Shown piece after piece: positions 15,280 through 31,436 of a DNA stretch of 64,000 nt; position 1 is the stretch's first letter, and each line of letters starts with the position of its first letter. The translations under genes and the position numbers were made by a program. Origin of the DNA: Verrucomicrobiota bacterium (GTDB lineage Bacteria; Verrucomicrobiota; Verrucomicrobiia; Opitutales; UBA953). The DNA lies in contig JAURFU010000001.1 of NCBI GenBank assembly GCA_030834165.1, positions 62,001 to 126,000 on the forward strand, read 5' to 3'. The notes below the pieces were generated by a model. It ran no database searches. It worked only from the letters and a program-made list of their open reading frames with translations, and was not told the origin of the DNA.

Positions 15280-18000
15280 ATGAAACATCTCAGCGTCGGC
15301 AGCCGATGGAACGCAGATCTGATCGCGTCCTATCACGAGCTGTGGTCCAAAGACCCCTCTTCCGTCGACGTGGAATGGCGCGCTTTCTTCGAGGGTTTCG
15401 AACTCGGCCTGAGCCTCCCGCCCAAACCCGGCAAGGGTGCACCGACCGGAACCTCGGTCGACGCGGCCGCCCAGTGGAAGGTTCTCGCCGCCATCCAGGC
15501 TTACCGTGCCCTCGGTCATCTCCAAGCCCGCATCAATCCCCTCGCCGAGCCGTTCCCCCACTTCGAGCTCGCCGACAAAGCCCTCGGCCTCGACGCCCTG
15601 CCCGCCGACCGCCTTTTCCATACCGGCGACTTCCTCGGCGGCCAGATGCTGCCTCTCGGCGAGATCCTCGCCAAGCTGAAGTCCACCTACTGCGGTCCGA
15701 TCGGCGTCGAATTCACCCACATCCAGGACGGCGAACGACGTCGCTGGCTCCAGGAGCGTGTCGAAAGCAGCGGACTTCGTCCGTCTTATGACGCCGCGGC
15801 CCGCCGCCGCTTCCTCCGCTCGATCGTGCAGGCCGAGCAGTTCGAACGCTTCCTTCACAAGACCTTCGTGGGCGCGAAGCGCTTCTCCGTCGAAGGCGGC
15901 GAAGCCATGCTGGCCGTCATGGACCAGATGATCCATCGCGCGCCGTCCGTCGGCGTCGCCGACCTCGTCATCGGCATGGCCCACCGCGGCCGCCTGAACG
16001 TCCTCGTCAACGTCTGCGGCAAGAAACCCGAAGCCCTCTTCGCCGGCTTCTCCGACCAGCACATCCCCGACACCACGCACGGCGACGGCGACGTGAAGTA
16101 TCACCTCGGCTACGCCGGCGCCCGCGTCGTCGACGGCAAGGAGATCGGCGTCACGCTCGCCTTCAACCCCAGCCACCTCGAAGCCGTCAACCCCGTCGTC
16201 CTGGGCCGCGCCCGCGCCCTCGTCGACCTCCAGGGCGGCGCCGACCGCTCCAAGGTCCTGCCCATCCTGCTGCACGGCGACGCCGCTTTCGCCGGCCAAG
16301 GCGTGGTGATGGAGACGCTCAACCTCGCCGGCCTCAAGGGCTACCAGGTGGGCGGCACCCTGCACATCGTCTCGAACAACCAGGTCGGCTTCACCACCGA
16401 TCCGGACGAAGCCCGCACCGGCCGGCATTGCACCGAGATCGCCAAGTTCACCGAATCCCCGATCTTCCACGCCAACGGTGACGATCCCGACGCCGTCGTG
16501 CTCGCCGCGGAGACCGCCCTCGAATACCGCCAGAAGTTCGGCGCCGACGCCGTCGTGGACATCGTGTGCTACCGTCGCTACGGCCACAACGAGACCGACG
16601 AACCGGCGTTCACCCAGCCCCTGCTGTACAAGGAGATCGCCGCCCACCCGAGCGTCGCCGAACTCTACGCCTCCCGCTTGACCGAATCCAAGTCGGCTCC
16701 GGACGGCGAGCTCATCGCCCTGCGCACCGAATTCGACGTGCTCCTCAACGCCGCGCAGGAACGCGCCCAGGCGTCGATCGCGGCCGAAGCCGAAGAGCGC
16801 AAGAACAAGCCCGTCGGCGTCCGCCCTTTCCGCTCGGCCTACGAACACTCCGTCGACACCTCCGTCCCCGGCGAGCTGCTCGACAAGGTCGCGCCGGTGC
16901 TATGGCAGACCCCGCCGGATTTCTCGCCCAACCCTAAGGTCAAGCGGCTCCTGGACGCCAAGTCCCAGGCGTACAAGTCCGGCGCCAACATCGACTGGAG
17001 CCTCGGCGAAGGCCTCGCCTTCGCCTCGCTGCTCGCCGAAGGTTATCCGGTGCGCATCTCCGGCCAGGACTGCGAACGTGGCACGTTCTCCCACCGTCAC
17101 GCCGTGCTGCACGACCCCTCGAACGACGCCGAATACTGCCCGCTCGGCTCGATCGCCGGCGCGGAGATCGAACTCGTCAACTCTTCCCTCTCCGAATACG
17201 CGGTCCTCGGCTTCGACTACGGCTACTCGCTTGAAGCCCCCGATTCGTTGGTCATCTGGGAAGCCCAGTTCGGCGACTTCGCCAACGGAGCGCAGATCAT
17301 GATCGACCAGTTCATCGCTTCCGCCGAGTCGAAGTGGGGACAGACCAGCGGGATCGTCATGCTCCTCCCGCACGGCTACGAGGGTCAGGGGCCGGAACAC
17401 TCCTCCGCCCGCCTCGAACGCTTCCTCCAGCTCTGCGCCGAGAACAATCTTCAAGTCGTCCAGCCTTCCACCCCCGCCCAGCTCTTCCATGCGCTGCGTC
17501 GTCAGGTGAAATCCGACCTCCGCAAGCCGCTGGTCGTCATGACCCCCAAGAGCCTGCTCCGTCACAAGGCCTGTGTCAGCACGGTCGCCGACCTGACCGT
17601 AGGCCGCTTCCACGCCATCCTGCCCGACGCCACCCCGGCCACCAAGACCGAGCGGCTGCTGCTCTGCTCCGGCAAAGTGTTCTACGAACTCGACGCCGAG
17701 CGCGCCGCCCGCAACGACACCGCGACGACCATCGTGCGCGTTGAGCAGCTCTACCCCTTCGACTCCGCCACGCTCGCCAGGCTTCATGCCGACCTCGGAT
17801 CGCCGAAGAAGGTCGTCTGGGTGCAGGACGAGCCCAAGAACATGGGTGGCTGGTCTTTCGTCGCCCCGCTGATCGAAGACACCCTCGGCCTCCGCCCGGC
17901 TTACGCCGGACGTGATGCCGCCGCCTCCCCGGCCGTCGGATTCCTCTCAGTCCATAAGATCGAGCAGGCCGACGTCATCCGACAAGCCTTTGGCGTCTAA
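15280..18000 (+). CDS. sucA: 2-oxoglutarate dehydrogenase E1 component
   Basis: This 906-residue thiamine diphosphate enzyme decarboxylates 2-oxoglutarate in the TCA cycle and passes the succinyl group to SucB. It shows 'EFTHIQDGERR', 'GMAHRGRLNVL' and 'VCYRRYGHNETDEP' (ThDP and Mg binding), and the transketolase-like 'SGQDCERGTFSHRHA' near residue 600. It is slightly shorter than the E. coli enzyme (933). It starts the sucA-sucB-lpdA operon. A pyrimidine-rich stretch rather than a Shine-Dalgarno sequence precedes the ATG. Confidence 0.97.
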   Translation: MKHLSVGSRWNADLIASYHELWSKDPSSVDVEWRAFFEGFELGLSLPPKPGKGAPTGTSVDAAAQWKVLAAIQAYRALGHLQARINPLAEPFPHFELADKALGLDALPADRLFHTGDFLGGQMLPLGEILAKLKSTYCGPIGVEFTHIQDGERRRWLQERVESSGLRPSYDAAARRRFLRSIVQAEQFERFLHKTFVGAKRFSVEGGEAMLAVMDQMIHRAPSVGVADLVIGMAHRGRLNVLVNVCGKKPEALFAGFSDQHIPDTTHGDGDVKYHLGYAGARVVDGKEIGVTLAFNPSHLEAVNPVVLGRARALVDLQGGADRSKVLPILLHGDAAFAGQGVVMETLNLAGLKGYQVGGTLHIVSNNQVGFTTDPDEARTGRHCTEIAKFTESPIFHANGDDPDAVVLAAETALEYRQKFGADAVVDIVCYRRYGHNETDEPAFTQPLLYKEIAAHPSVAELYASRLTESKSAPDGELIALRTEFDVLLNAAQERAQASIAAEAEERKNKPVGVRPFRSAYEHSVDTSVPGELLDKVAPVLWQTPPDFSPNPKVKRLLDAKSQAYKSGANIDWSLGEGLAFASLLAEGYPVRISGQDCERGTFSHRHAVLHDPSNDAEYCPLGSIAGAEIELVNSSLSEYAVLGFDYGYSLEAPDSLVIWEAQFGDFANGAQIMIDQFIASAESKWGQTSGIVMLLPHGYEGQGPEHSSARLERFLQLCAENNLQVVQPSTPAQLFHALRRQVKSDLRKPLVVMTPKSLLRHKACVSTVADLTVGRFHAILPDATPATKTERLLLCSGKVFYELDAERAARNDTATTIVRVEQLYPFDSATLARLHADLGSPKKVVWVQDEPKNMGGWSFVAPLIEDTLGLRPAYAGRDAAASPAVGFLSVHKIEQADVIRQAFGV

Positions 18001-18138
18001 TAAGGGTCAGTAGCCGATTTTACCGGCTTAACTCGCCCGCCTACTACCCCCTGAACGACCCCCTAAGGTCGTTTAAACGGCTATTTCCCCGTTGAAAGGC
18101 CTCGGAATGGGTTCCAATTTGATGACCACCCAACTTTC
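18001..18138 (+). other. sucA-sucB intergenic region with two hairpins
   Basis: This 138-base gap contains two small inverted repeats: AGCCG/CGGCT at 18012-18028 and AACGACC/GGTCGTT at 18054-18073. The second is followed only by TTAAA, not a T run. It could attenuate transcription, act as a processing site, or set stoichiometry between E1 and E2. No protein-coding frame is convincing here. Confidence 0.4.
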
Positions 18139-19407
18139 ATGGCCGTCGAAGTCAAAATCCCTCCCATGGGCGAATCCATCACCGGGGGCCTCCTGGCCGC
18201 CTGGTTGGTCAAGTCCGGTGACGCCGTCCGCAAGGGTCAGCCGCTCTTCTCGTACGAGACCGACAAGGTCACCTCCGAAGGCACCGCCGAAGTCGACGGC
18301 AAGATCACCATCGTCGTGAACGCCGGCACCGACGTCGTCGTCGGTCAGGTCGTCGCGTCGATCGAAGCTGGCGCCGCCGGCAATGTTCCTTCCGCGCCCG
18401 CCGCCCCGGCGCCCGCCGCCAAGGCTGCGCCTGCGCCGGCTGCCGCGCCCGACGCCGCGCCTGCGACCAAGCCTGCGCCGGTCGCCGCCAAGTCCGGCGC
18501 CGCCGCCGAAGTCTCTCCGTCCGTCCGTCGCATCGCCGCCGAGACCGGCCTCGATCCTGCCGGCGTCGAAGGCACCGGCAAGGCCGGCCGCGTCACCAAG
18601 GGCGACATGCTCGCCGCGCTTTCCGGCCAGGCACCGATCCGCGCCACCGCTCCGGCCGCCGCCCCGTCCGCCGCTTCCTCCGCCCCGGTCGTCATCCCTT
18701 CGCGCGACGGCCGTACCTCGCGCAAGCGCATGTCCCCGCTGCGTCGCAAGATCGCCGAGCGCCTCGTGCAGGCGAAGTCCGAGACCGCGATGCTCACGAC
18801 CTTCAACGAGGTCAACATGGCCCCCGTCATGGAGCTGCGCAAACGTCACGGCGAAGAATTCCTCAAGAAATACGGGGTCAAGCTCGGCTTCATGTCCTTC
18901 TTCGTGAAGGCCGCCGTCCAGGCGATGAAGGAAGTGCCGGCGATCAACGCCCAGCTCGACGGCGAGGACATCATCGAGAACCACTTCTTCGACATCGGCG
19001 TGGCCGTCGGCACCGACAAGGGACTCATGGTCCCCGTCGTCCGCGACTGCGACCAGCTCAACTTCGCCGGCATCGAGAAGGCGATCGGCGACTTCGGCAA
19101 GCGCGCCCGCGACGGCAAGATCCAGCTGCCTGAGCTCCAGGGCGGCGTCTTCACCATCTCCAACGGCGGCATCTACGGCTCGATGCTCTCGACGCCGATC
19201 CTCAACCACCCGCAGGCCGCCATCATGGGCCTCCACAACATCGTCGAACGTCCGGTCGCCGAGAACGGCCAGGTCGTGATCCGTCCGATCATGTACCTCG
19301 CCCTCTCGTACGACCACCGCCTCATCGACGGCAAGGAGGCCGTGACGTTCCTCGTCAAGGTGCGCCAATACATCGAAGACCCGCAGCGCCTGCTGTTCGG
19401 CGTCTGA
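18139..19407 (+). CDS. sucB: 2-oxoglutarate dehydrogenase E2 (dihydrolipoyl succinyltransferase)
   Basis: This 422-residue core enzyme moves the succinyl group to CoA. The lipoyl domain (about 1-80) has the modified lysine K43 in 'ETDKVTSE'. An Ala/Pro-rich swinging linker follows, then a peripheral-subunit binding domain ('[15 protein letters not shown]', about 125-160), a second linker, and the catalytic domain with '[12 protein letters not shown]' near the end. One lipoyl domain and this length fit SucB. lpdA begins 23 bases downstream. Confidence 0.96.
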
Positions 19408-19430
19408 ACCTTTCCCTGATTCCTACCGCA

Positions 19431-20831
<1,401 letters not shown>

Positions 20832-20852
20832 GCGAGTCCGGATTATCGAACG

Positions 20853-20883
20853 AAAGGGTGCGAATAGCACCCTTTCTTGTTTT
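20853..20883 (+). terminator. Rho-independent terminator of the suc operon
   Basis: AAAGGGTGC at 20853-20861 pairs with GCACCCTTT at 20867-20875 around a GAATA loop, followed by CTTGTTTT. It lies 21 bases after the lpdA stop and isolates the operon from the SRP RNA and valS. Confidence 0.85.
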
Positions 20884-20940
20884 ACGGCCCAAACAGGACG
20901 CCCTCCCAATTGAAGGGAAGGCGTCGATTGAAAAGCAAGG

Positions 20941-21036
20941 GGCCAGGCTTGCCACGGCACACGGATGGACTGACTGCCGTTGCTTCCTTCCGGACCTGGC
21001 GGGATTCGTCGGCCACCCGTTGCATGGGGCCTGGCT
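20941..21036 (-). ncRNA. ffs: Signal recognition particle RNA, small bacterial (4.5S) type
   Basis: The minus strand reads CAGGTCCGGAAGGAAGCAAC, the almost invariant apical loop region of bacterial SRP RNA that binds Ffh (plus-strand positions 20979-20998). The flanks close a long hairpin: GCCAGGC (21035-21029) pairs with GCCTGGC (20948-20942). The length of about 96-100 bases fits the small Alu-less type. A short CCCCTTGCTTTT tract follows at the 3' end. It lies antisense in the gap between lpdA and valS. Ends are accurate to a few bases only. Confidence 0.92.
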
Positions 21037-21107
21037 TGGCTATCTTGATGCCCGCCTAGTCCGTTCTTTTCAATCCCCAACTTAACCCCTAATCATTCCC
21101 CTTTCCG

Positions 21108-23831
21108 ATGGCCGAAATCCCCAAATCTTATGAGCCGCAAGGCGTCGAACAGCAGTGGTACGACCGCTGGGTCTCGGCGGGCTGCTTCCAAGGCAAGGTC
21201 GACCCCTCCCGCGAGTCCTTCGCGGTGATGATCCCTCCGCCCAACGTCACGGGCGTGCTCCACATGGGTCACCTGCTCAATAACACGCTGCAGGACATCA
21301 TGGTCCGCCGCGCCCGTCAGGAAGGCAAATCGGCCCTCTGGCTCCCCGGCACCGACCACGCCGGCATCGCGACGCAGTCGCGCGTCGAAAAGGAACTCCG
21401 CCAGAAGGAAGGCAAGACGCGCCACGACCTCGGCCGCGAGAAGTTCATCCAAGCCGCCTCCGAATGGCGCGACAAGCACGGCGGCATCATCCTCGGCCAG
21501 CTCCGCAAGCTCGGCGCCTCCTGCGACTGGGACCGCACCGTGCACACGCTCGACGCCGGCTACTCGCAGGCGGTCCTGCAGACTTTCGTCACGCTCTACG
21601 AACGCGGCTACGTCTACCGCGGCAAGCGCATGGTGAACTGGTGCCCGGTCTCACAGACCGGCCTGTCCGACGAAGAGGTGATCATGAAGCCCTCGAAAGG
21701 CTCGCTCTATCGCATGCGCTACGAGGTCGCCGAGATCCCCGGGACCTTCCTCGAGATCTCGACCACGCGCCCCGAGACCATCCCCGGCGACGCCGCCGTG
21801 GCGGTGCATCCCGAAGACGAACGCTACAAGCACCTCATCGGCAAGCATGTCTGGCGCCCCTTCCCTCGCGCGCGGATCCCGGTCGTCGGCGACGCCGCGG
21901 TCGAGAAGGAATTCGGCACGGGCGTCCTCAAGGTCACCCCGGCCCATGACCGCACCGACTTCGACATCGGCAAGCGCCATCAGCTGCCGGTCATCGACGT
22001 GATGAACCCGGACGGCACGATGAACGCCGACGCCGGCCCGCTCGCGGGCATGGAACGCTTCAAGGCCCGCCACGCCGCCGAGAAACTCCTCGAGGAGCTG
22101 GGCGCGCTGGTGAAGACCGAACCCTACGAGAACACGGTCGGCTTCTCCGAACGCGCCGACGTGCCGATCGAACCCCGCCTGAGCGAACAGTGGTTCATCC
22201 GCTATCCGAAGATCGACGAAGCCAAGCGGGCCGTCACCTCGGGCATCATCAAGTTCCACCCGGAACGCTGGACCAAGACCTACCTGCACTGGCTCGAGAA
22301 CATCCAGGACTGGTGCGTCAGCCGCCAGCTCTGGTGGGGCCACCGCATCCCGGTCTGGTATCGCAAGGGCGCCGACCGCAACGATCCGAAGAACCTGCAC
22401 GTCTCCCTCACGGCCCCCGCCGACGCCGCCGACTGGGAGCAGGATCCGGACGTCCTCGACACGTGGGCTTCCTCCTGGCTCTGGTGCCTCGCGACCATCG
22501 GCTGGCGCAAGCCGGGCGAGACGACCGAGGAACTCAAGCACTGGTATCCGACCGGCGCCCTCGCCACGGGCCCCGACATCATCTTCCTCTGGGTGGCCCG
22601 CATGATCATCGCCGGCCTCGAACTCCACGGTCCCGAGAAGAAGACGCTCACCGACGACGAGATCCGCCAGCGCATCCCGTTCAAGCGAGTCTATTTCAAC
22701 GGCATCATCCGCGACAAGCTCGGCCGCAAGATGTCGAAGTCCCTCGGCAATTCGCCCGAGCCGCTCGACCTGATCGCCAAGTTCGGCGCCGACGGCCTGC
22801 GGTTCGGCCTGCTTTCGATCGCGCCCAAGGGCCAGGACATCCTCTTCGATGAGGATCGCGTCGCCCAAGGCCGCAACTTCTGCAACAAGCTCTGGAACGC
22901 CGCCCGCTTCCGTCAGATGTCCGGCCCGATGGCCGACAACGCGACGCTCGCCGCCGTCGTCGGCCGCATCAAGGCCTCCCAGCTCGACGACGATGACTTC
23001 GCGATCCTGCAAGGGCTCGCCGAACTCACCGACGGCACCACCAAGAACCTCGAGGAGCACGAGTTCACGGCCTACGCCCAAGGTCTCTACTCCTTCTTCT
23101 GGGGCGACTTCTGCGACTGGTATGTCGAAGCCTCGAAGGCCCGCCTCAAGGATCCGGCGCTGGTGGGCAACTGCCTCGCGGTCCAGGACCTCGTGCTGCG
23201 TCAGTTCCTCCTGCTCCTCCACCCGGTGGCGCCCTTCATCTCGGAGGAGCTCTGGCACCTCCTGGGTTACGGCGCCGAGCACGATTTCATCCAGAACCAC
23301 CACACCGGCACCGGCGGCGACCTGCTCCGGGTCCTCCGCGAGCACGGCATCAAGCTCAGCGCGGCCAAGGTCGCGGACGTGGCCTTGCTGCGTGAATTCG
23401 TCGCTTCGGTCCGCGCGCTGAAATCCCAGGCCAACCAGGCCACCCGCCGCGACTCGGTGGTCACCGTCGTCGCGAAGGACGCGACGGCCAAGGCCCTCCT
23501 CACCGCCAACCGGGAGAAGCTCAGCAGCCTCGCCGGCCTCGCCGATCTCGGCTTCGCCGACGACGCCGGCGGCCGCACGGGCTCGCTGACCTCCGTCGGG
23601 ACGGTCATGCTCGAACTCTCCGGCGCGGTCGATGTAGCCGCCGAGAAGGTCCGTCTGTCCAAGGAACTCGCGAAACTCGAGCAGGCGGTCGCCGCCGGCG
23701 AAGCGAAGCTCACGAACGAAGCGTTCGTCTCCAAGGCTCCGCCCAAGATCCTCGAAGGGGCCCGCAAGCAGCTCGACGAAGCCAAGGCCAAGCGCGACGA
23801 GATCGCGCGCATGCTCACGACCCTCGGCTAA
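21108..23831 (+). CDS. valS: Valyl-tRNA synthetase
   Basis: This 907-residue class I synthetase charges tRNA-Val. The HIGH-type motif is HMGH at residues 52-55 in 'PPPNVTGVLHMGH', and the KMSKS loop is at 541-545. The editing (CP1) domain holds 'TTRPETIPGD'. The C-terminal coiled coil (about residues 840-907, rich in Lys/Glu/Ala) is typical of ValS and absent from IleRS. There is no Shine-Dalgarno sequence. nagB begins one base after its stop, so valS may be transcribed with the amino-sugar operon. Confidence 0.97.
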   Translation: MAEIPKSYEPQGVEQQWYDRWVSAGCFQGKVDPSRESFAVMIPPPNVTGVLHMGHLLNNTLQDIMVRRARQEGKSALWLPGTDHAGIATQSRVEKELRQKEGKTRHDLGREKFIQAASEWRDKHGGIILGQLRKLGASCDWDRTVHTLDAGYSQAVLQTFVTLYERGYVYRGKRMVNWCPVSQTGLSDEEVIMKPSKGSLYRMRYEVAEIPGTFLEISTTRPETIPGDAAVAVHPEDERYKHLIGKHVWRPFPRARIPVVGDAAVEKEFGTGVLKVTPAHDRTDFDIGKRHQLPVIDVMNPDGTMNADAGPLAGMERFKARHAAEKLLEELGALVKTEPYENTVGFSERADVPIEPRLSEQWFIRYPKIDEAKRAVTSGIIKFHPERWTKTYLHWLENIQDWCVSRQLWWGHRIPVWYRKGADRNDPKNLHVSLTAPADAADWEQDPDVLDTWASSWLWCLATIGWRKPGETTEELKHWYPTGALATGPDIIFLWVARMIIAGLELHGPEKKTLTDDEIRQRIPFKRVYFNGIIRDKLGRKMSKSLGNSPEPLDLIAKFGADGLRFGLLSIAPKGQDILFDEDRVAQGRNFCNKLWNAARFRQMSGPMADNATLAAVVGRIKASQLDDDDFAILQGLAELTDGTTKNLEEHEFTAYAQGLYSFFWGDFCDWYVEASKARLKDPALVGNCLAVQDLVLRQFLLLLHPVAPFISEELWHLLGYGAEHDFIQNHHTGTGGDLLRVLREHGIKLSAAKVADVALLREFVASVRALKSQANQATRRDSVVTVVAKDATAKALLTANREKLSSLAGLADLGFADDAGGRTGSLTSVGTVMLELSGAVDVAAEKVRLSKELAKLEQAVAAGEAKLTNEAFVSKAPPKILEGARKQLDEAKAKRDEIARMLTTLG

Positions 23832-23832
23832 G

Positions 23833-24573
23833 ATGATCAGGACAAGGCTCCACCCCGACAAGCAGTCCGCCGCGCAGGCGATCGCCCGGGAGATAGCCGA
23901 CCTGATCGAGATACGCTCGAAATCGGGCAAGCCGACGGTGCTGGGCCTGGCCACGGGCTCCACGCCCCTGCCCCTCTATGCGGAACTGATCCGCCTCCAC
24001 CGAGAAGAGGGTCTCAGCTTCCGCTCGGTGATCACGTTCAATCTCGATGAATACGAAGGCCTGGGACCGGACCACGCCCAGTCCTACCGCTACTTCATGG
24101 AGGCGAACCTGTTCGGTCATCTCGACATCCCGAAGTCGGCGATCCACATCCCTGACGGGCGCGCCGCCGATCCCGCTGGCGAATGCGCGGCCTACGAAGC
24201 CGCCATCCGCGCGGCCGGAGGCATCGACCTGCAGGTCCTCGGCATCGGCCGGACCGGACACATCGGCTTCAACGAACCGCCCTCGGCCGTCGACAGCCGC
24301 ACCCGCTGGGTCCACCTCGATGAGGTGACCCGTAAGGACAACTCGGTCTTCTTCGGCGACCTCGCCCAAGTCCCCCATGGAGCGCTCACGATGGGCGTGG
24401 CGACCATCCTCGAAGCCCGCCGCGTCGCTTTGCTAGCCTTCGGGGAGACGAAAGCCGACATCGTCGCCCGCGCCGTGAAGGAGACGCCTTCCGCCGGCTG
24501 TCCGGCGACCTGGCTGCAGCGGCATCAGGACTGCACGTTCCACCTCGACGCCGCGGCGGCCAAGCGCCTCTGA
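23833..24573 (+). CDS. nagB: Glucosamine-6-phosphate deaminase
   Basis: This 246-residue enzyme converts glucosamine 6-phosphate to fructose 6-phosphate and ammonia. It has the phosphate loop 'LATGSTPLPLY', the catalytic D72 in 'FNLDEY', and 'GIGRTGHIGFNEP' with the ring-opening histidine H143. It is slightly shorter than E. coli NagB (266) and may lack the allosteric GlcNAc6P site. It opens a tight run of sugar genes, starting one base after valS and eight bases before the ROK-like kinase gene. Confidence 0.93.
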   Translation: MIRTRLHPDKQSAAQAIAREIADLIEIRSKSGKPTVLGLATGSTPLPLYAELIRLHREEGLSFRSVITFNLDEYEGLGPDHAQSYRYFMEANLFGHLDIPKSAIHIPDGRAADPAGECAAYEAAIRAAGGIDLQVLGIGRTGHIGFNEPPSAVDSRTRWVHLDEVTRKDNSVFFGDLAQVPHGALTMGVATILEARRVALLAFGETKADIVARAVKETPSAGCPATWLQRHQDCTFHLDAAAAKRL

Positions 24574-24581
24574 ACCTGACG

Positions 24582-25967
24582 ATGGACGTCGCCCCACGCC
24601 ATCGTTCGTCCATCGACCCGGGACTGGTGCCGGCCGCCCTCTGGACGCGAGCCTATCTCCGTCGCTGCGCCGCGACCGCCGGAGCTTCGGAGCTGACGAT
24701 CGCGCTGCGGCGCACCGACGGCACGGCTTCCCTCTTCCGCACGCAGGTGCTCGCCCTGGGAGCCGACGACGCCGCCACCTACCTTCACGTCGAACGCACG
24801 GTCAAGTTCCTGCTTTGGTCACGCGGTGGTTCGGACGTCCTGCTCAGCGGCCCCCAGGCGGCCACGCTGACCGCTCGACTGAAGGCCGACTACGCCCCCT
24901 CCGGGAAACGAGGCTTCGACGCCGACTTCTTCCGCAAGGTCTTTGAAAAGCCGCTGGGCTTCTCCGTCGTCACCGAGGCCGAACTCCCTGGCGCCTCCGC
25001 TGCCCACCTTCCGCTGGGCAGGAACCTCGACGGCTGCCGCATCGGCTTCGACCTCGGCGGTTCGGACCGCAAATGCGCCGCGGTGATCGACGGCAAGGTC
25101 GTCTTCTCCGAAGAGGTGAAGTGGGATCCCTATTTCCAGTCCGACCCTGCCTACCACCTCGCCGGCATCCGTCACTCCTTGGAACTTGCCGCGCGGCATC
25201 TGCCCCGCGTTGACGCCATCGGAGGCTCCTCCGCCGGCGTCTACGTCAACAACAAGGTCCGCATCGCCTCCCTTTTCCGCGGTGTCCGGGATGAGGCCGT
25301 CTTCGACGCCAAGGTGCGGGACATGTTCGTCGATCTGGCCCGCGAATACGGCGTGCCGTTCGAAGTGCTCAATGACGGCGACGTGACCGCCTTGGCGGCT
25401 TCGATGTCCCTCGGCCGTAACGCCGTATTGGGCGTGGCCATGGGAACGAGCGTGGCCGCCGGCTACGTCGACCAGGCGGGCAATCTGACGAACTGGCTGA
25501 GCGAACTGGCCTTCGTGCCGGTCGACTATCGTCCTGACGGACCCGCCGACGAATGGTCGGGCGACCAAGGTTGCGCCGTGCAATACTTCAGCCAGCAAGG
25601 CGTGGGCCGTCTCCTGCCGCTGGCCGGCATCGCACTGCCGCCCTCCCTGAAACTTCCCGAGCAACTCGAAGAACTCCAGCGCCTGATGCTCCAAGGCGAC
25701 CCTCGCGCGCGCAAGGTCTACGAAGCGATCGGCATCGCGCTGGGCTACTCGATCGCGCATTTCGCCAGCTTCTACGAGATGGGCTGCCTCCTGATCATGG
25801 GCCGGGTGACCTCCGGCCAAGGCGGAAGCGTCATCATCGAACACGCCCAAACGGTCCTCCGCGACGAATTCCCCGAACTTCGCATCGACCTCGTCGTGCC
25901 CTCCGAGAAGGATAAGCGTCACGGCCAGGCCGTCGCCGCCGCCTCCCTCCCTTCCCTTCGCCGATGA
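24582..25967 (+). CDS. ROK-family sugar kinase-like protein with extra N-terminal domain
   Basis: A 461-residue protein. Residues 150-455 look like a ROK kinase: phosphate-1 motif 'GFDLGGSDRKCA' (155-166), sugar-binding 'GGSSAGV', catalytic 'LNDGDVTALA' (N264, D265) and 'GVAMGTSVAAGYV'. The usual zinc motif CxCGxxGCxE is degenerate, 'SGDQGCAVQY' (326-335), keeping only one cysteine. Residues 1-145 form an extra domain I do not recognise. Between nagB and a PIG-L deacetylase, a glucosamine or GlcNAc kinase role is likely, by context. It overlaps the next gene by ATGA. Confidence 0.8.
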   Translation: MDVAPRHRSSIDPGLVPAALWTRAYLRRCAATAGASELTIALRRTDGTASLFRTQVLALGADDAATYLHVERTVKFLLWSRGGSDVLLSGPQAATLTARLKADYAPSGKRGFDADFFRKVFEKPLGFSVVTEAELPGASAAHLPLGRNLDGCRIGFDLGGSDRKCAAVIDGKVVFSEEVKWDPYFQSDPAYHLAGIRHSLELAARHLPRVDAIGGSSAGVYVNNKVRIASLFRGVRDEAVFDAKVRDMFVDLAREYGVPFEVLNDGDVTALAASMSLGRNAVLGVAMGTSVAAGYVDQAGNLTNWLSELAFVPVDYRPDGPADEWSGDQGCAVQYFSQQGVGRLLPLAGIALPPSLKLPEQLEELQRLMLQGDPRARKVYEAIGIALGYSIAHFASFYEMGCLLIMGRVTSGQGGSVIIEHAQTVLRDEFPELRIDLVVPSEKDKRHGQAVAAASLPSLRR

Positions 25968-26812
25968 TCCCGCTCAACCCGCGAGCCAGACTCATGATCC
26001 CGGACGGCATGGCCGCCCCGGAGGCCTTGCGCCGGACCACCCACCTCGGCATCGGCGCCCACCAGGACGACCTGGAGTTCATGGCCTTCCACGGGATCCT
26101 CGCCTGCTACGACCGAGCCGACCGCTGGTTTGGCGGCGTGACCATCACCGACGGACGCGGCAGCTCCCGCGCCGGCAAGTTCAAGGATTGGACCGACGAC
26201 CAGATCGCCGCCGAACGGATCCGCGAGCAGGACGCCGCCGCCGTGATCGGACGATATTCCTTCATGGCCCAGCTGGGCTATCCCAGCGCCTCCGTCCGCG
26301 ACGCCCGCGAGGCGTCCGTGCGCGACGACCTTCTCCGCATCCTGGAAGCCACCCGCCCCGAAGCGGTCTACCTGCACAATCTGGCGGACAAGCATGACAC
26401 CCACGTCGGTTGCGCGCTTCGCTGCATCGAAGCCATCCGTCTCCTGCCCAGCTCCGACCGGCCCAAGAAGGTCTACGGCTGCGAAGTCTGGCGCGACCTC
26501 GATTGGCTCGTCGACGCCGAGAAGACCCCGATGCCGGTCTCGGAACGCCCTGACCTCGCCCGGGCCTTGAACGAAGTCTTCGCCACGCAGATCGCCGGCG
26601 GCAAACGCTACGACCTCGCCGTCATCGGACGTCGGACGGCCAACGCCACCTTCAGCCAGGCGCATTCGACCGACCAGGAGACCGCCATGCAGTGGGCGAT
26701 GGACCTCACCCCGCTGGCGCAGGACGATTCGATCGACCCTCTCGACTATGTGCTCGGCTTCATCGACCGCCTCAAGGCCGACGTGACCGCCCGCATCCGC
26801 AAATCCCTCTGA
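25964..26812 (+). CDS. PIG-L family deacetylase
   Basis: This 282-residue protein has the zinc motif 'GAHQDDLEF' (H33, D35, D36) and a later ligand H147 in 'KHDTHVGC', the LmbE/PIG-L pattern. Family members remove N-acetyl groups from GlcNAc-containing molecules. No signal peptide is present, so it acts in the cytosol. No nagA is seen in this operon, so this enzyme could supply glucosamine or GlcN6P to NagB. That role is inferred. The variant AHQDD differs from the usual AHPDD. Confidence 0.85.
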   Translation: MIPLNPRARLMIPDGMAAPEALRRTTHLGIGAHQDDLEFMAFHGILACYDRADRWFGGVTITDGRGSSRAGKFKDWTDDQIAAERIREQDAAAVIGRYSFMAQLGYPSASVRDAREASVRDDLLRILEATRPEAVYLHNLADKHDTHVGCALRCIEAIRLLPSSDRPKKVYGCEVWRDLDWLVDAEKTPMPVSERPDLARALNEVFATQIAGGKRYDLAVIGRRTANATFSQAHSTDQETAMQWAMDLTPLAQDDSIDPLDYVLGFIDRLKADVTARIRKSL

Positions 26813-26813
26813 C

Positions 26814-27719
26814 ATGAAACCCACCCTTCTCGTCCTCGCCGCCGGCATGGGCAGCCGCTACGGCGGCCTCAAGCAGATCGACCCGATGGGCCCCTCCGGC
26901 GAGACCATCCTCGACTACTCCGTCTTCGACGCCCTGCGCGCCGGCTTCGGCAAGGTCGTCTTCATCATCCGGCCCGATTTCGAGAAGGATTTCCGCGAGC
27001 GCATCGCCGCGAAGTTCGCCGGCCGGATCGAAGTCGGCTTCGCTTTCCAGACCATCGACCAGCTCCCGGCCGGCTTCTCCGTCCCCGCCGGTCGTGAAAA
27101 ACCCTGGGGCACGACGCATGCCATCCTCTGCGCCCGCCAGGCCGTCGACACGCCTTTTGCCGTGATCAACGCCGACGACTTCTACGGCCAGGATTCTTAC
27201 GCCGTGCTGGGGCGTCACCTGCAGGCGCTGGACGTCCGTTCGACGGCCTACTCGATGGTCGGCTTCACGCTCAAACACACGCTTTCGGAGCACGGCACGG
27301 TCGCCCGCGGCGTCTGCCAGACCGACGCCTCCGGCAAGCTCACCGACATCCAGGAACTGACGAAGATCTCCAAGCTCGCCGTCGGCGCCGAACACCGCGG
27401 CGAAGACGGCACGACGGTCAGCCTGTCGGGCGAGGAGCCGGTCTCGATGAACATGTGGGGCTTCACCCCGGCCATCTTCCCGCAGCTCGCCGCCGACTTC
27501 GACGCCTTCCTCCGCGCCAAGGGCTCGGAGATGAAGAGCGAGGCCTACATCCCGATGTCCGTCGGCAACCTGATCCGCTCCGGACAGGCGACCTGCCAGG
27601 TGCTCCGCACGGATTCCGCCTGGTTCGGCGTCACTTACCGCGAAGACAAGCCCGTCGTCCAGGAAAGCATCCTCCGACAGGTGCGGTCCGGCGCGTATCC
27701 GGCGAGCCTCTGGTCCTGA
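26814..27719 (+). CDS. Sugar-phosphate nucleotidyltransferase
   Basis: A 301-residue protein with the GT-A nucleotidyltransferase start 'LVLAAGMGSRYGGLKQIDP' (residues 5-23), a variant of GxGTRxxPxxK, then 'WGTTHAILCAR' and the metal motif 'VINADDFYG'. Such enzymes join a sugar 1-phosphate to UTP or a similar nucleotide. It sits between the PIG-L deacetylase and the NahK-like kinase, one base from the latter. The most likely job is to activate the HexNAc 1-phosphate made by that kinase. Confidence 0.85.
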   Translation: MKPTLLVLAAGMGSRYGGLKQIDPMGPSGETILDYSVFDALRAGFGKVVFIIRPDFEKDFRERIAAKFAGRIEVGFAFQTIDQLPAGFSVPAGREKPWGTTHAILCARQAVDTPFAVINADDFYGQDSYAVLGRHLQALDVRSTAYSMVGFTLKHTLSEHGTVARGVCQTDASGKLTDIQELTKISKLAVGAEHRGEDGTTVSLSGEEPVSMNMWGFTPAIFPQLAADFDAFLRAKGSEMKSEAYIPMSVGNLIRSGQATCQVLRTDSAWFGVTYREDKPVVQESILRQVRSGAYPASLWS

Positions 27720-27720
27720 C

Positions 27721-28827
27721 ATGTCCGCCACCGCCGACGAAGCCCTGGTCGTTGCCGCCGAATTCGCGTTCGGCGGCAAGGTGCTGTCGGCGGCTCCTTA
27801 CGGCAGCGGTCACATCAACGACACTTTCCTCGTCCTGGTCGAAGCCACGCCGAACCCTCGGCGCTTCGTCCTGCAGCGCATCAACCACCACGTCTTCAAG
27901 CAGCCCGACCTGCTGATGGAAAACGTGGAACGCGTCTGCGCCCACGCCCACGCCAGACTCCGCGCCGCAGGCGCGAACGATGCGCATCGTCGGGCGCTTC
28001 GGCTCATCCCCACGCAGAAGGAAAAGTCCTGGCATGTCGACGCCGCCGGGAACCGCTGGCGCTGCTACGACTTCATCGAAGGCGCGACCGGTCACGACGT
28101 CGTGCGTTCCGCCGCCCAAGCCGAGGCCGCCGCCAAGGCCTTCGGAGCCTTCCAAGCCTTGCTCGCCGACCTTCCCGGAGGCCGTCTGCATGAGACCATC
28201 CCCGGCTTCCATCACACCCCCGGCCGCTACGCCCGCTTCCAGGCCGCCCTGGCGGTCGACGCCCATGGACGCGCCGCCATGGCGGTGCCGGAGATCGCCT
28301 TCGCGTTGGCGCGCGCCCATGAGGTCGGCGTGGTCGTCGACGCCCTCCGGGACGGCACCCTGCCGGAACGGGTGACGCATAACGACACCAAGCTGAACAA
28401 CGTCCTCCTCGATGACGTGACCCAGGAAGGCGTCTGCGTCATCGACCTCGATACGGTGATGCCCGGCTCGGCGCTCTACGACTTCGGCGACCTCGTGCGC
28501 ACCTCGACCTCGCCCGCCGCCGAAGACGAGACCGACCTCGCCAAGGTCACGATGCAGCTGCCGATGTTCGAGGCGCTGGTCCGCGGCTACCTGTCCTCCG
28601 CGCGTGGCTTCCTGACGCCCCGCGAGAAGGAGCTCCTGCCCTTCGCCGGCAAGCTCATCACCTTCGAGATCGGCCTGCGGTTCCTGACCGACTGGCTCGA
28701 AGGCGACACCTACTTCAAGATCAAGCGCCCCGCGCACAATCTCGACCGCGCCCGGACTCAGTTCAAACTCGTCGCCTCGATCGAGGAGCAGCTTCCCGCC
28801 ATGCGCGCCATCGTCGAACGCTCATGA
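27721..28827 (+). CDS. NahK-like N-acetylhexosamine 1-kinase (APH-fold phosphotransferase)
   Basis: A 368-residue protein of the aminoglycoside phosphotransferase fold. The N-terminal nucleotide loop 'YGSGHINDTFLV' and 'QRINHHVFKQPDLLM' closely follow the pattern of N-acetylhexosamine 1-kinase (NahK/LnpB) of bifidobacteria. The catalytic segment is 'THNDTKLNN' (H220, D222, N227) and the metal motif is 'DLDTVMPG'. NahK phosphorylates the anomeric OH of GlcNAc or GalNAc. A homologous choice would be another sugar 1-kinase. It overlaps the epimerase gene by ATGA. Confidence 0.82.
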   Translation: MSATADEALVVAAEFAFGGKVLSAAPYGSGHINDTFLVLVEATPNPRRFVLQRINHHVFKQPDLLMENVERVCAHAHARLRAAGANDAHRRALRLIPTQKEKSWHVDAAGNRWRCYDFIEGATGHDVVRSAAQAEAAAKAFGAFQALLADLPGGRLHETIPGFHHTPGRYARFQAALAVDAHGRAAMAVPEIAFALARAHEVGVVVDALRDGTLPERVTHNDTKLNNVLLDDVTQEGVCVIDLDTVMPGSALYDFGDLVRTSTSPAAEDETDLAKVTMQLPMFEALVRGYLSSARGFLTPREKELLPFAGKLITFEIGLRFLTDWLEGDTYFKIKRPAHNLDRARTQFKLVASIEEQLPAMRAIVERS

Positions 28828-29747
28828 GCCGCGTCCTCATCACCGGCGGGGCCGGCTTCATCGGCTCGCACCTTGCGCGGCATTTCGCCTCCTGCGGCGA
28901 AGTGACCGTCCTCGACGACCTCCGCAGCGGTCACGACCGCAACCTCGAAGGAGTGGACTGCCGCTTCATGCGCGGATCGATTCTTGACGAGGCTACCTTG
29001 CGCGAGGCGATCGCCGGCGCCGAGGAGGTCTATCACCTCGCCGCGATGGTTTCGGTGCCGGAATCCGTGGCCAAGCCCGCCGAGTGCGCCGAACTCAACA
29101 CCGAGGGCACCCGCCGCGTCCTCGATGCGGCCATGACCGCCGGCGTCCGCAAGGTCGTGCTCGCCTCGTCCGCCGCCATCTACGGGGACAATCCGACCGT
29201 GCCCAAGCTGGAGACCATGCCTCCCGAGCCGAAGTCGCCCTATGCGGAGACCAAGCTCGCCGGCGAACGTCTGCTGGAAGCCTACCGGCGTTCGCACGGG
29301 CTCGGCACGACGAGCCTGCGCTTCTTCAACGTGTTCGGTCCGCGCCAGGACCCACGCTCGGCTTATGCCGCGGCGGTCCCGATCTTCATCGCCAAAGCCC
29401 TCCGCGGCGAACCGATCGGCATCCATGGCGACGGCGGACAGACCCGGGATTTCATCCACGTCACCGACATCGTCGGCGCGCTCGCTTTCGCCGGCGCTTC
29501 GGCGGAGATGCATGGCACGTACAACGTCGGTTACGGCCGCAGCCAGTCCATCCTTGAGCTGGCCACGGAGATCGTCCGCCTCACGGGTTCGAAATCCCGC
29601 ATCGAGCACCTGCCGACGAGGGCCGGGGACGTGCGCCATTCCCTGGCGTCCAACGAACGCCTCCTCGCCGCCGGCTGGCGGCAGCGTTCCTCCGTCGCCG
29701 CCGGACTGGTCGAGACGATCGACTACTTCCGTCAGCTCAAGGCGTGA
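28824..29747 (+). CDS. NAD-dependent sugar epimerase/dehydratase
   Basis: A 307-residue extended short-chain dehydrogenase. The Rossmann motif is 'GGAGFIGSH' (8-16), with 'LAAMVSVPES' and 'ASSAAIYG'. The active site is S115/S116 with Y140-x3-K144. It resembles UDP-glucose or UDP-GlcNAc 4-epimerases (GalE, WbpP, Gne). As the last gene of the operon, after a nucleotidyltransferase and a NahK-like kinase, it probably interconverts UDP-GlcNAc and UDP-GalNAc. Its end overlaps the convergent gene by 11 bases. Confidence 0.86.
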   Translation: MSRVLITGGAGFIGSHLARHFASCGEVTVLDDLRSGHDRNLEGVDCRFMRGSILDEATLREAIAGAEEVYHLAAMVSVPESVAKPAECAELNTEGTRRVLDAAMTAGVRKVVLASSAAIYGDNPTVPKLETMPPEPKSPYAETKLAGERLLEAYRRSHGLGTTSLRFFNVFGPRQDPRSAYAAAVPIFIAKALRGEPIGIHGDGGQTRDFIHVTDIVGALAFAGASAEMHGTYNVGYGRSQSILELATEIVRLTGSKSRIEHLPTRAGDVRHSLASNERLLAAGWRQRSSVAAGLVETIDYFRQLKA

Positions 29748-30597
29748 CGACCAACGTCGCGCGCAGGAGTTCCTCCTGCCCGTCGTTGAGGTTGAGCCAG
29801 AAATCGTACGTCCCAGGGGCGGGCAGACGCAGCCGGAAAGCGAGCGTCGGATCCTCCGCATACTCGCCGCCCTCGAGGGTCGGATGCATATGGGCGTAGC
29901 CGGCGTCAGGACGGTCGACGGAGAAGACCACCGCATGCCCCAAGGAACCCATGATCGGCTTGAGACGAAGCTTCCTGCCTTCGAGTCCCGACAGGCGAAG
30001 CCGGATCATCGCGGAGGAACCGGTCTGGCTGGTCGACGTGGTGAGTTCCACGATGCGGTTGCGAGGGACCGGGGCGGGCGGCGCTCCGGCCGTGGTGAAA
30101 GCAGGCGCGACCTCCGCCTCGGCCATCATGGTCCGCGAAGTACGCACATCGCTGAAATCGACATAGGCCCGCAAGCCGATGCCGCGCAGGTGGGCCGGCA
30201 CTTCGAAGCGCCAGGACCCGTCGTCGGCCGGCTGAGGGTGAAGGTGCGCATACTGCCGCCCCCCGCCGAGCTGGCGAAGATGCAGGTGCACGCGCTGGGT
30301 ATGGGAGACCGCCACCTCGTGCGCGTAATAAGGGTGACCGTCGTCCTTGAGGAGACGCACCTCGCCCGCTTTGCCTTCCGCATCCAAGACCACCTTCAGC
30401 TCCACGGGGAAGCGCAGGCCTTTCGGGGAATAGAAGTTGGCCTCCTCGTTGAGCCCGCAGAACTCAAGGCCGTCCACCACGACCGGTTCATGATCGGCAT
30501 GCAGGAACGTGCACTGGGTGTCAGGCAGGGAACGCAGGCCGAAGAACCCCAGGACCGCGACGGCCGTGATGATGCCGACTTGGCGGGGGTTCGACAT
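29737..30597 (-). CDS. Membrane-anchored protein with two HxHP motifs, Sco neighbour
   Basis: This 286-residue protein has an N-terminal membrane anchor (about 8-22), then extracytoplasmic beta-rich sequence. Two similar motifs stand out: 'YAHLHPQP' (HLHP at 118-121) and 'YAHMHPTL' (HMHP at 236-239), with nearby 'HTQRVHLHL'. The pattern recalls the YtkA/FixH-like or metal-responsive proteins often found beside copper genes. Its start overlaps the Sco stop by one base. A copper-binding or delivery role is inferred from the motifs and this coupling. No named family was recognised. Confidence 0.65.
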   Translation of the reverse strand: MSNPRQVGIITAVAVLGFFGLRSLPDTQCTFLHADHEPVVVDGLEFCGLNEEANFYSPKGLRFPVELKVVLDAEGKAGEVRLLKDDGHPYYAHEVAVSHTQRVHLHLRQLGGGRQYAHLHPQPADDGSWRFEVPAHLRGIGLRAYVDFSDVRTSRTMMAEAEVAPAFTTAGAPPAPVPRNRIVELTTSTSQTGSSAMIRLRLSGLEGRKLRLKPIMGSLGHAVVFSVDRPDAGYAHMHPTLEGGEYAEDPTLAFRLRLPAPGTYDFWLNLNDGQEELLRATLVVTP

Positions 30598-31436
30598 CAG
30601 CGTCGGGCTCCGGCGCCTCCCTCGAGGGAAAGCAGGCGGCGGGCGATTTCTTCGGCGTCAAAGGACGGCCCTTCGTTGCGGAAGGCGATTCGTCCCTCCG
30701 GGGTGATGACGATGAGCGCGGCGTTGTGCACGATGGTGCCGTCGTCACGCAGGGTCTGGATGCCGTAATGGCGTAGCAGGTCCTTGATCTGGCCGGCGTC
30801 GCCGGTGAGGAAACGATGGCGGGCATGGTCGATGCCATAACCGTCCGCATAAGCGCGGAGCTGGCCGGGGGAATCGGTCTCCGGGTCGAAGGTGATCGTC
30901 ACCAGGCGGATGCCCGCGGCGGCGGGATCTTTGGCGAGACGGTCGCCGAGGGACTTCATGCAGGCGGTCGAAGCCGGACACATGCGGGCGACGCGGCAGC
31001 TGGTGAAGATGAAGTTCAGGGCGATCGCGTGCCCGAGCAGGTCCTTCTTCGTCACCAGCCGACCGTCTTGATCCCAGAGCGCCATGTTTGGCATCAGTTC
31101 ATTCGGCATGCGGGTCACCATGCGTCCTTTGTCGACGGTCTCCCGGCGGAGGACATCGGTGACTTCGGCGACGCGACGGAGTTCCTCCGGGTCGGCGGAA
31201 ACGACGCCGCGGGCGAAGGTCTCGGCTCCTTCGGTGACGGCGTCGTAACGGATCAGGCGGCCGAGCCAGCCGACCTTGCGGTCGCCCTCCGAGAAACGTC
31301 GGAGCAGGACCGCGCCATCCTTGCCGGCCAAGGATATCTTCGCCGACCCGTCAGACCCCACCGAAAGGACCTTGCCCTGCTCGGTGGCGGCGGGAAGGCC
31401 GACGACGGCCAGCAGGAGGAAGAGAAGAGGTCGCAT
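30597..31436 (-). CDS. SCO1/SenC/PrrC family protein
   Basis: A 279-residue exported thioredoxin-fold copper chaperone, which in its family helps build the Cu-A centre of cytochrome c oxidase. A signal peptide (1-17) is followed by a small beta-rich segment (20-75) and the Sco domain. The metal cysteines are C147 and C153 in 'TSCRVARMCP', the CX5CP spacing of one Sco subgroup, and the third ligand is probably H237 in 'IVHNAAL'. It is co-translated with the HxHP protein. No oxidase genes are in the window. Confidence 0.85.
   Translation of the reverse strand: MRPLLFLLLAVVGLPAATEQGKVLSVGSDGSAKISLAGKDGAVLLRRFSEGDRKVGWLGRLIRYDAVTEGAETFARGVVSADPEELRRVAEVTDVLRRETVDKGRMVTRMPNELMPNMALWDQDGRLVTKKDLLGHAIALNFIFTSCRVARMCPASTACMKSLGDRLAKDPAAAGIRLVTITFDPETDSPGQLRAYADGYGIDHARHRFLTGDAGQIKDLLRHYGIQTLRDDGTIVHNAALIVITPEGRIAFRNEGPSFDAEEIARRLLSLEGGAGARR

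Follow-up and report, generated by a model that had tools for sequence, protein, structure and literature searches.

How might two sets of amino-sugar genes, one for breakdown and one for nucleotide-sugar salvage, work together when the deacetylase encoded between them is not NagA? The question is raised by a locus in the genome of a Verrucomicrobiota bacterium (Opitutales; UBA953). The locus lies in a stretch of 64,000 nucleotides (hereafter the window; contig JAURFU010000001.1, positions 62,001 to 126,000 of the forward strand). The contig is 167 kb long and belongs to a genome of 2.25 Mb that is 81.1% complete. An annotation made from the sequence alone (the first-pass annotation) had proposed six tightly packed head-to-tail genes. 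All six open reading frames (ORFs) were confirmed, all on the plus strand. The six proteins scored above their family cut-offs in a Pfam search, and NCBIfam agreed with the names. The genes, with one neighbour, are as follows:

23833-24573, plus strand: nagB, glucosamine-6-phosphate (GlcN-6-P) deaminase; PF01182, 85.3 bits.
24582-25967, plus strand: ROK-like kinase, predicted N-acetylglucosamine (GlcNAc) 6-kinase; PF00480, 29.9 bits (cut-off 22.9).
25964-26812, plus strand: zinc deacetylase of the PIG-L/LmbE fold, predicted GlcNAc-6-phosphate (GlcNAc-6-P) deacetylase (NagA analogue); PF02585, 50.7 bits (cut-off 28.2).
26814-27719, plus strand: nucleotidyltransferase (NTP), predicted N-acetylhexosamine 1-phosphate (HexNAc-1-P) uridylyltransferase; PF00483, 22.4 bits, a narrow pass (cut-off 21.2).
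27721-28827, plus strand: NahK-type N-acetylhexosamine (HexNAc) 1-kinase, with matches to solved NahK; PF01636, 66.4 bits.
28824-29747, plus strand: NAD-dependent epimerase, predicted 4-epimerase of uridine diphosphate (UDP)-GlcNAc and UDP-N-acetylgalactosamine (UDP-GalNAc); PF01370, 209.4 bits.
21108-23831, plus strand: valS, valyl-tRNA synthetase; Pfam tRNA-synt_1, 402 bits.

From nagB to the epimerase gene the intergenic gaps are +8, -4, +1, +1 and -4 bases. The six genes are real, but the proposed six-gene operon overlooked valS, which ends at 23831, 1 bp before nagB begins at 23833; in the window lineage, valS probably opens the transcription unit, which then has seven genes. The order valS-nagB-ROK-PIG-L-NTP-NahK-epimerase was found in 15 of 16 stretches from the same genus, and the sixteenth (L045) breaks off inside NahK at a contig end. 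Because the order is kept in this way, the grouping is not due to chance. Of 51 loci with both genes, 49 allowed the gap between valS and nagB to be measured, and it ranged from -1 to 11 bp; several genomes are present twice in this count (own stretch and named contig).

The gene families, their catalytic residues, the conserved linkage and a swap of the deacetylase were observed directly. The first-pass proposal that amino-sugar breakdown and UDP-HexNAc salvage are united in one operon is supported. We judge the arguments evenly balanced as to whether the last six genes form a single pathway, entered at two points, that utilises and salvages N-acetylhexosamines, for which we infer the substrates, the order of kinase before deacetylase, the link between the branches and co-transcription. 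In the first branch, the ROK-like kinase would phosphorylate GlcNAc at O6 to give GlcNAc-6-P, the PIG-L protein would remove the acetate in NagA's stead to give GlcN-6-P, and NagB would convert this to fructose-6-phosphate and ammonia. In the second, NahK would phosphorylate GalNAc or GlcNAc at O1, the nucleotidyltransferase would make UDP-HexNAc, and the epimerase would interconvert UDP-GalNAc and UDP-GlcNAc. The product could then enter cell-wall synthesis, or return through a reversed pyrophosphorylase and GlmM to GlcNAc-6-P and thus to the first branch. More broadly, and at somewhat less than an even prospect, we propose that the PIG-L protein is an unrecognised GlcNAc-6-P deacetylase working with a ROK GlcNAc kinase whose zinc site has been lost, across Verrucomicrobiota and relatives; that the nucleotidyltransferase known as 'GalY' is a HexNAc-1-P uridylyltransferase; and that, with NahK and the epimerase, it makes a GalNAc-to-GlcNAc route that would supply enzymes still missing from the GlcNAc/GalNAc shortcut of Akkermansia.

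The order of the first branch was approached through loci that contain the ROK gene. These comprised 100 phylum stretches around the gene, hand-picked among the matches listed (most of genus g44, Akkermansia, was skipped, and genomes G129 and G235 contributed two stretches each), together with loci of named relatives and earlier stretches, and they were searched with 19 query proteins. In G+C-rich stretches tblastn was relied on for gene finding. The 221 loci were reduced to 142 by dropping fragments of fewer than 400 residues and relatives more than 90% identical, and then to 121 by requiring 2.5 kb on both sides; 23 of these representatives belong to the window's own lineage and 98 lie outside it. 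Wrong-strand translation of L146, L155, L175 and L190 affects only their clustering at 90%, not the neighbour labels, and the tree and residue counts use the correct strand. A deacetylase gene was counted as nearby when it shared the strand of the ROK gene and lay no more than 5.5 kb away.

Eighty of the 121 loci have a nearby deacetylase: a PIG-L protein of the window type in 42, a second PIG-L type (type 2) in 13, both in 11, and NagA in 14. Directly after the ROK gene stands window-type PIG-L in 45 loci, NagA in 14, PIG-L type 2 in 12 and NTP in nine. NagA and PIG-L together were found in none of the 121 loci when the divergent NagA type of the window's own genome is not counted; when it is, one locus (L114) carries nagA and nagB2 upstream on the same strand plus both PIG-L types. 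The two NagA proteins tested, those of L098 (285.9 bits) and L105 (282.7 bits), exceed the cut-off of 225.65. The swap of deacetylases is real, and it rests on few events. The kinase does not follow it: 26 of the 29 ROK residues checked, mostly of the catalytic and sugar site, are uniform across 14 NagA-linked, 66 PIG-L-linked and 41 other proteins, and the three that vary (C331, V333 and S337) do not do so by deacetylase class.

NagA deacetylates GlcNAc-6-P (PMC6016474), so a kinase beside NagA is expected to make that compound. Since the ROK residues checked do not differ between NagA-linked and PIG-L-linked loci, the simplest account is that a single kinase acts on a single substrate and that the deacetylase exists in forms unrelated to each other. 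No NagA family (TIGR00221) was among the Pfam and NCBIfam matches of the PIG-L protein, which we propose as an analogue of NagA and not a homologue.

Fused genes point in the same direction. Gene fusions usually join consecutive steps of a pathway. In some loci, such as L104 of Cerasicoccus, a NagB::PIG-L fusion adjoins the ROK gene (841 bits to PRK02122, with both Pfam domains), and its two enzymes would be consecutive only if PIG-L makes GlcN-6-P. The sequences thus favour the kinase first and the deacetylase second. The PIG-L half of the fusion is of the second type, not the window type. The NagB of the window passes the equivalog cut-off of TIGR00502 (254 versus 236.9 bits). Its top score, 310.9 bits, is to the N-terminal half of PRK02122, below the whole-length cut-off of 384, and its nearest solved sequence is 2bkv (E 5.2e-56).

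The first-pass annotation had given the opposite order, in which PIG-L acts on free GlcNAc to give glucosamine (GlcN), the ROK protein phosphorylates GlcN at O6 and NagB acts last, an order known from the archaeal chitin pathway. This order is disfavoured by NagA filling the PIG-L slot in 14 of the 121 loci beside unchanged ROK residues, since NagA needs GlcNAc-6-P, and by the fusion; it would also leave the GalNAc branch unconnected to NagB. It draws some strength from three other observations. The fold matches of the PIG-L protein (BshB, diacetylchitobiose deacetylases, MshB and the hydratase GalB) include enzymes that act on an unphosphorylated sugar, the diacetylchitobiose deacetylases. 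Two substrates would also be consistent with the 11 loci that have both PIG-L types, in many of which one PIG-L is fused to NagB and another stands on its own. The sugar site of the ROK protein is also unlike that of GlcNAc kinases. On balance we regard deacetylation before phosphorylation as unlikely.

In the PIG-L protein itself, the residues of the zinc motif AHxDD...HxxH (H33, D35, D36, H144 and H147) are invariant in 19 of 19 sequences. A second invariant stretch, GGKRYDL...GRR (residues 212-224), falls mostly in segments of the model with a predicted local distance difference test (pLDDT) below 50 (211-215 and 218-236), and is perhaps a lid that is ordered by contact with substrate or within an oligomer.

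The ROK protein bears a 150-residue N-terminal extension ahead of the ROK fold (residues 150-461), and its AlphaFold2 model has a pLDDT of 92.5. The fold was matched by the GlcNAc kinase 7p9l (Z 25.4, root-mean-square deviation 2.8 over 283 residues) and the glucokinase 2qm1 (Z 26.3). Fold searches with the ROK and PIG-L proteins do not separate the candidate substrates, and a Protein Data Bank (PDB) sequence search with the single ROK protein gave no match at E 0.1. The metal-binding motif DxGG (D157 and G159), N264-D265 with the catalytic Asp, and E308 are identical in all 121 representatives; the invariant residues also include F311, D323-S326 and D328. The structural zinc site of ROK proteins is made up of a His and three Cys. 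In weak profile alignments (glucokinase 2qm1, E 7.5e-5; the human ManNAc kinase of GNE, E 0.013), F311, E324 and S326 stand at the zinc His and two of the Cys, and the fourth position is C331, which is Cys in 101 of the 121 representatives. By these alignments, the zinc site is mostly lost in this kinase. In PsNagK, GlcNAc is contacted by S78, N104, D105, E154, H157 and D187, and the zinc site involves H157 (PMC10031466); by motif their counterparts include N264, D265 and E308, Phe311 takes the place of the His, and S78 and D187 were not placed. ROK repressors occur among the fold matches, and we considered and rejected a role as transcriptional repressor: the kinase residues are kept, and the 50 fold matches listed cover about residues 150-461. 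No DNA-binding head for residues 1-150 was found among these 50 matches, in a search in which the N-terminal domain was not queried alone; two hexokinase matches start at residue 9.

In the second branch, the assignment as NahK-like 1-kinase holds well by sequence: three solved N-acetylhexosamine 1-kinases match (4wh1, 4ocj and 4ocu), the best with E 1.6e-93 over residues 9-365. The only strong solved relative of the nucleotidyltransferase is 3pnn, named 'conserved domain protein' (E 9.7e-103). NahK is present in 50 of the 121 ROK loci. It adjoins NTP in 43 of the 43 that hold NTP and the epimerase in 37 of 37. Outside ROK loci the two genes can be separate: NTP adjoins NahK in four of the five Akkermansia-family genomes examined, G229 being the exception. 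The partnership with NahK argues for a HexNAc substrate of the nucleotidyltransferase. Ser273 of the epimerase (DVRHS), which we take to be the equivalent of GalE residue 299, has a Ser as its counterpart in 6wjb and 6dnt, and 31 of 37 sequences have Ser at this position, some rows being mis-translated; the nearest solved structures are 6wjb (E 1.4e-66) and 6wj9, both presumably PelX. PelX is a UDP-GlcNAc C4-epimerase (PMC9135694), and in GalE-type UDP-HexNAc 4-epimerases of group 2/3 the C5 pocket has a small residue, Cys or Ser (PMC6668579). Growth of B. theta on GalNAc depends on BT4240, a homologue of NahK that acts as a GalNAc O1 kinase (PMC11992087), which speaks for the proposed pathway.

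A galactose route of the Leloir type, with the nucleotidyltransferase as GalY (a replacement of GalT) and the epimerase as GalE, would explain the same genes differently. Ravcheev and Thiele (2017) predicted this role for the NTP_transferase gene Amuc_0031, the orthologues of which are found clustered with galE (15 genomes) or with galMP (two genomes) (PMC5583593). The published Amuc_1822 primer was compared with 12 g44 genomes; it matched G167 exactly and ten others with one or two mismatches, and found no match in G283. Because of its exact match, G167 was taken as A. muciniphila. There (L246:5310-8278), NTP, NahK and the epimerase stand in a row and are 54, 57 and 55% identical to the window proteins. 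By its position this NTP is probably Amuc_0031, the predicted galY: Amuc_0032 is listed as an outer membrane protein (PMC12810044), and the ORF adjoining the NTP gene looks secreted by eye. However, the kinase beside NTP is of the NahK type in every ROK locus with NTP, and galK is scarce in the window genus, which also argues for a HexNAc substrate, less strongly than the NahK partnership. It was not matched in the window's own genome (81% complete) and was above cut-off in seven of 41 genus genomes; G004, G011 and G033 (94-96% complete) have the whole operon and no galK match. That the solved structure closest to the epimerase is presumably PelX also speaks against the galactose route. In favour of galactose, galK was matched in six of the 15 genus genomes that are at least 90% complete. 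We consider the Leloir-type route improbable, and HexNAc-1-P remains our preferred substrate. According to the accessible text of PMC5902328, A. muciniphila growth on GalNAc needs a HexNAc route, of which it names the epimerase only; that text contains no mention of a kinase, pyrophosphorylase, uridylyltransferase or nucleotidyl terms.

A further question is where the amino sugars come from. The pathway might recycle amino sugars from the peptidoglycan of the cell itself instead of using outside glycans, a reading of its purpose that is compatible with the chemistry proposed above. It would agree with the conserved valS linkage, with the lack, in the window lineage, of a regulator, transporter or glycosidase of the operon's own, and with the sole GH20-family match of the window's own genome being weak (36 bits). 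We tried and rejected an amino-sugar auxotrophy, as reported for Akkermansia, in the window organism: GlmS (765 bits) and GlmM (557 bits) are present, and the operon is therefore not an auxotroph's lifeline, which likewise suits recycling. On the other hand, other lineages place operon-type genes with GH20, GH89 and sugar transporters of the SSS, MFS or ABC kinds, and 38 of 41 genus genomes have a GH20-family match above the cut-off, strong (>300 bits) in ten of them. Recycling as the main purpose is possible but doubtful. The GH20, GH89 and sugar transporter genes next to operon-type genes in L117, L118 and L099 also speak for the N-acetylhexosamine pathway, as does glmM in the window's own genome. 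The valS link extends across the lineage and would place the amino-sugar genes under a housekeeping promoter. Just upstream of valS lies a bacterial small signal recognition particle RNA (20938-21036, minus strand; Rfam RF00169, 73.9 bits), and an opposite-strand ORF (29737-30597) shares 11 bases with the 3' end of the epimerase gene.

The first-pass statement that there is no NagA is true of the operon and the window, but not of the genome. On contig C57 (L135:8956-10853) a NagB paralogue is directly followed by a NagA-like amidohydrolase gene. Both fall below their cut-offs (NagA-like, 202 versus 225.65 bits; NagB paralogue, 128.5 versus 236.9 bits), and the pair recurs in L136 and L137. It may serve another amino sugar by a second route, possibly that of galactosamine-6-phosphate. 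NagA-like matches (E 0.001) were found in 22 of 37 genus genomes, including this one; none exceeded the cut-off, and that of G031 was very weak.

Several observations weigh against the proposed pathway. The same genome has a NagA-like gene, so that a lack of NagA cannot by itself explain a need for PIG-L. No deacetylase was found nearby in 41 of the 121 ROK loci, and the ROK gene of A. muciniphila lies elsewhere (L139, 54% identical) with none of the 19 query genes near it; the kinase role need therefore not be tied to the pathway. Both PIG-L types occur together in 11 loci, which indicates that the two are not simply redundant and that the window type may act on a different substrate. In a tree built from the 121 kinases, the NagA or PIG-L label requires a minimum of two changes, one of them forced by well-supported branches. 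The GlcNAc specificity of the kinase is unreadable from its sequence or fold, most of its zinc ligands and its sugar-site His being gone, and the Z scores tie between GlcNAc kinase and glucokinase. In the second branch, BT4240 favours GalNAc over GlcNAc about 275-fold (PMC11992087), and in G229 NTP is on one contig and NahK-epimerase on another. Finally, a scan of 18000-31000 for sigma-70-like promoters found none where 0.9 were expected, an uninformative result, so co-transcription rests on gene spacing.

The kinase gene was found in 33 of 37 genus genomes (own included), four of 20 genomes of the same order and 197 of 288 genomes drawn from Verrucomicrobiota. The same six-gene neighbourhood, which the first-pass annotation suggested seeking elsewhere, recurs within the genus as described, but the exact set with window-type PIG-L within 5.5 kb was found in none of the 98 representative loci outside the window lineage. 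Four of these (L154, L168, L212 and L222) hold the other five genes with NagA instead of PIG-L, the nagB-epimerase-NahK-NTP block being divergent from ROK-NagA, and L163 holds them with PIG-L type 2. In Verrucomicrobia subdivision 3, L117 (4711-14951) and L118 carry GH89, GH20, ROK, PIG-L, NagB, NahK and the epimerase in a single run, and between ROK and PIG-L lies a 229-residue protein that has no Pfam match. The named relatives of the kinase come from metagenome-assembled genomes (MAGs) of Opitutales/Opitutae, several with lake names in their titles, from which we infer a freshwater-type host. MAG contigs titled Polynucleobacter meluiroseus (L054) and Akkermansia muciniphila (L071) hold the Opitutales operon (kinase 87% and 76% identical) and are probably mislabelled or mis-binned. 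In nine genomes of genus g71 (G076, G085, G088, G112, G121, G127, G148, G151 and G198), each ROK match contains one TAA, which may reflect an alignment extended beyond the stop codon or a genuine premature stop.

The operon is real, conserved and well packed, and it combines known families in a way that was not found described in the literature searched. The first-pass remark that no known pathway has this exact set agrees with that search, which left most subscription papers uncovered. What makes it of interest is the deacetylase swap, together with the candidate genes for Akkermansia. If the proposal is true, a large group of gut and environmental bacteria has an unrelated second enzyme for the step usually assigned to NagA; the growth of A. 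muciniphila on GalNAc and its wall building without GlmS gain three candidate genes; and the predicted galactose gene GalY is reassigned to HexNAc-1-P.

Compared with the canonical NagK-NagA-NagB route, the window shares a ROK-fold kinase, a deacetylase and a true NagB, and a NagA-type deacetylase does stand beside this kinase in 14 of the 121 loci. It differs in that the deacetylase is a PIG-L zinc hydrolase, not an amidohydrolase, and in that the kinase has the 150-residue extension and is mostly without the ROK zinc site. The fusion family PRK02122/NF002557 ('glucosamine-6-phosphate deaminase-like protein' at NCBI) has the same two domains physically joined, whereas NagB and PIG-L are separate proteins in the window and its PIG-L is of a different type from the fused one. 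The archaeal chitin pathway consists of the deacetylase Dac, a GlcN kinase and a GlcN-6-P deaminase. A PIG-L-fold deacetylase, a kinase and the deaminase are therefore common to both, but no exo-glucosaminidase or ADP-dependent kinase was found among the seven window genes by Pfam, and the swap favours a phosphorylated substrate. The likeness to the bifidobacterial lacto-N-biose pathway (lnpABCD) noted in the first-pass annotation extends to NahK and the epimerase step; it is incomplete, as neither the phosphorylase nor GalT was found among the seven genes (Pfam), and an NTP_transferase stands in the place of GalT. With BT4240 of B. theta the window shares a NahK homologue, O1 phosphorylation and the GalNAc entry point; that gene lies in a mucin polysaccharide utilisation locus, and the main text of PMC11992087, in its accessible part, mentions no nucleotidyltransferase, uridylyltransferase or epimerase. 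The GlcNAc shortcut and predicted GalY of Akkermansia (PMC5902328, PMC5583593) are a further parallel: A. muciniphila has the same NTP-NahK-epimerase trio and a ROK gene, but there the nucleotidyltransferase was predicted to act on galactose.

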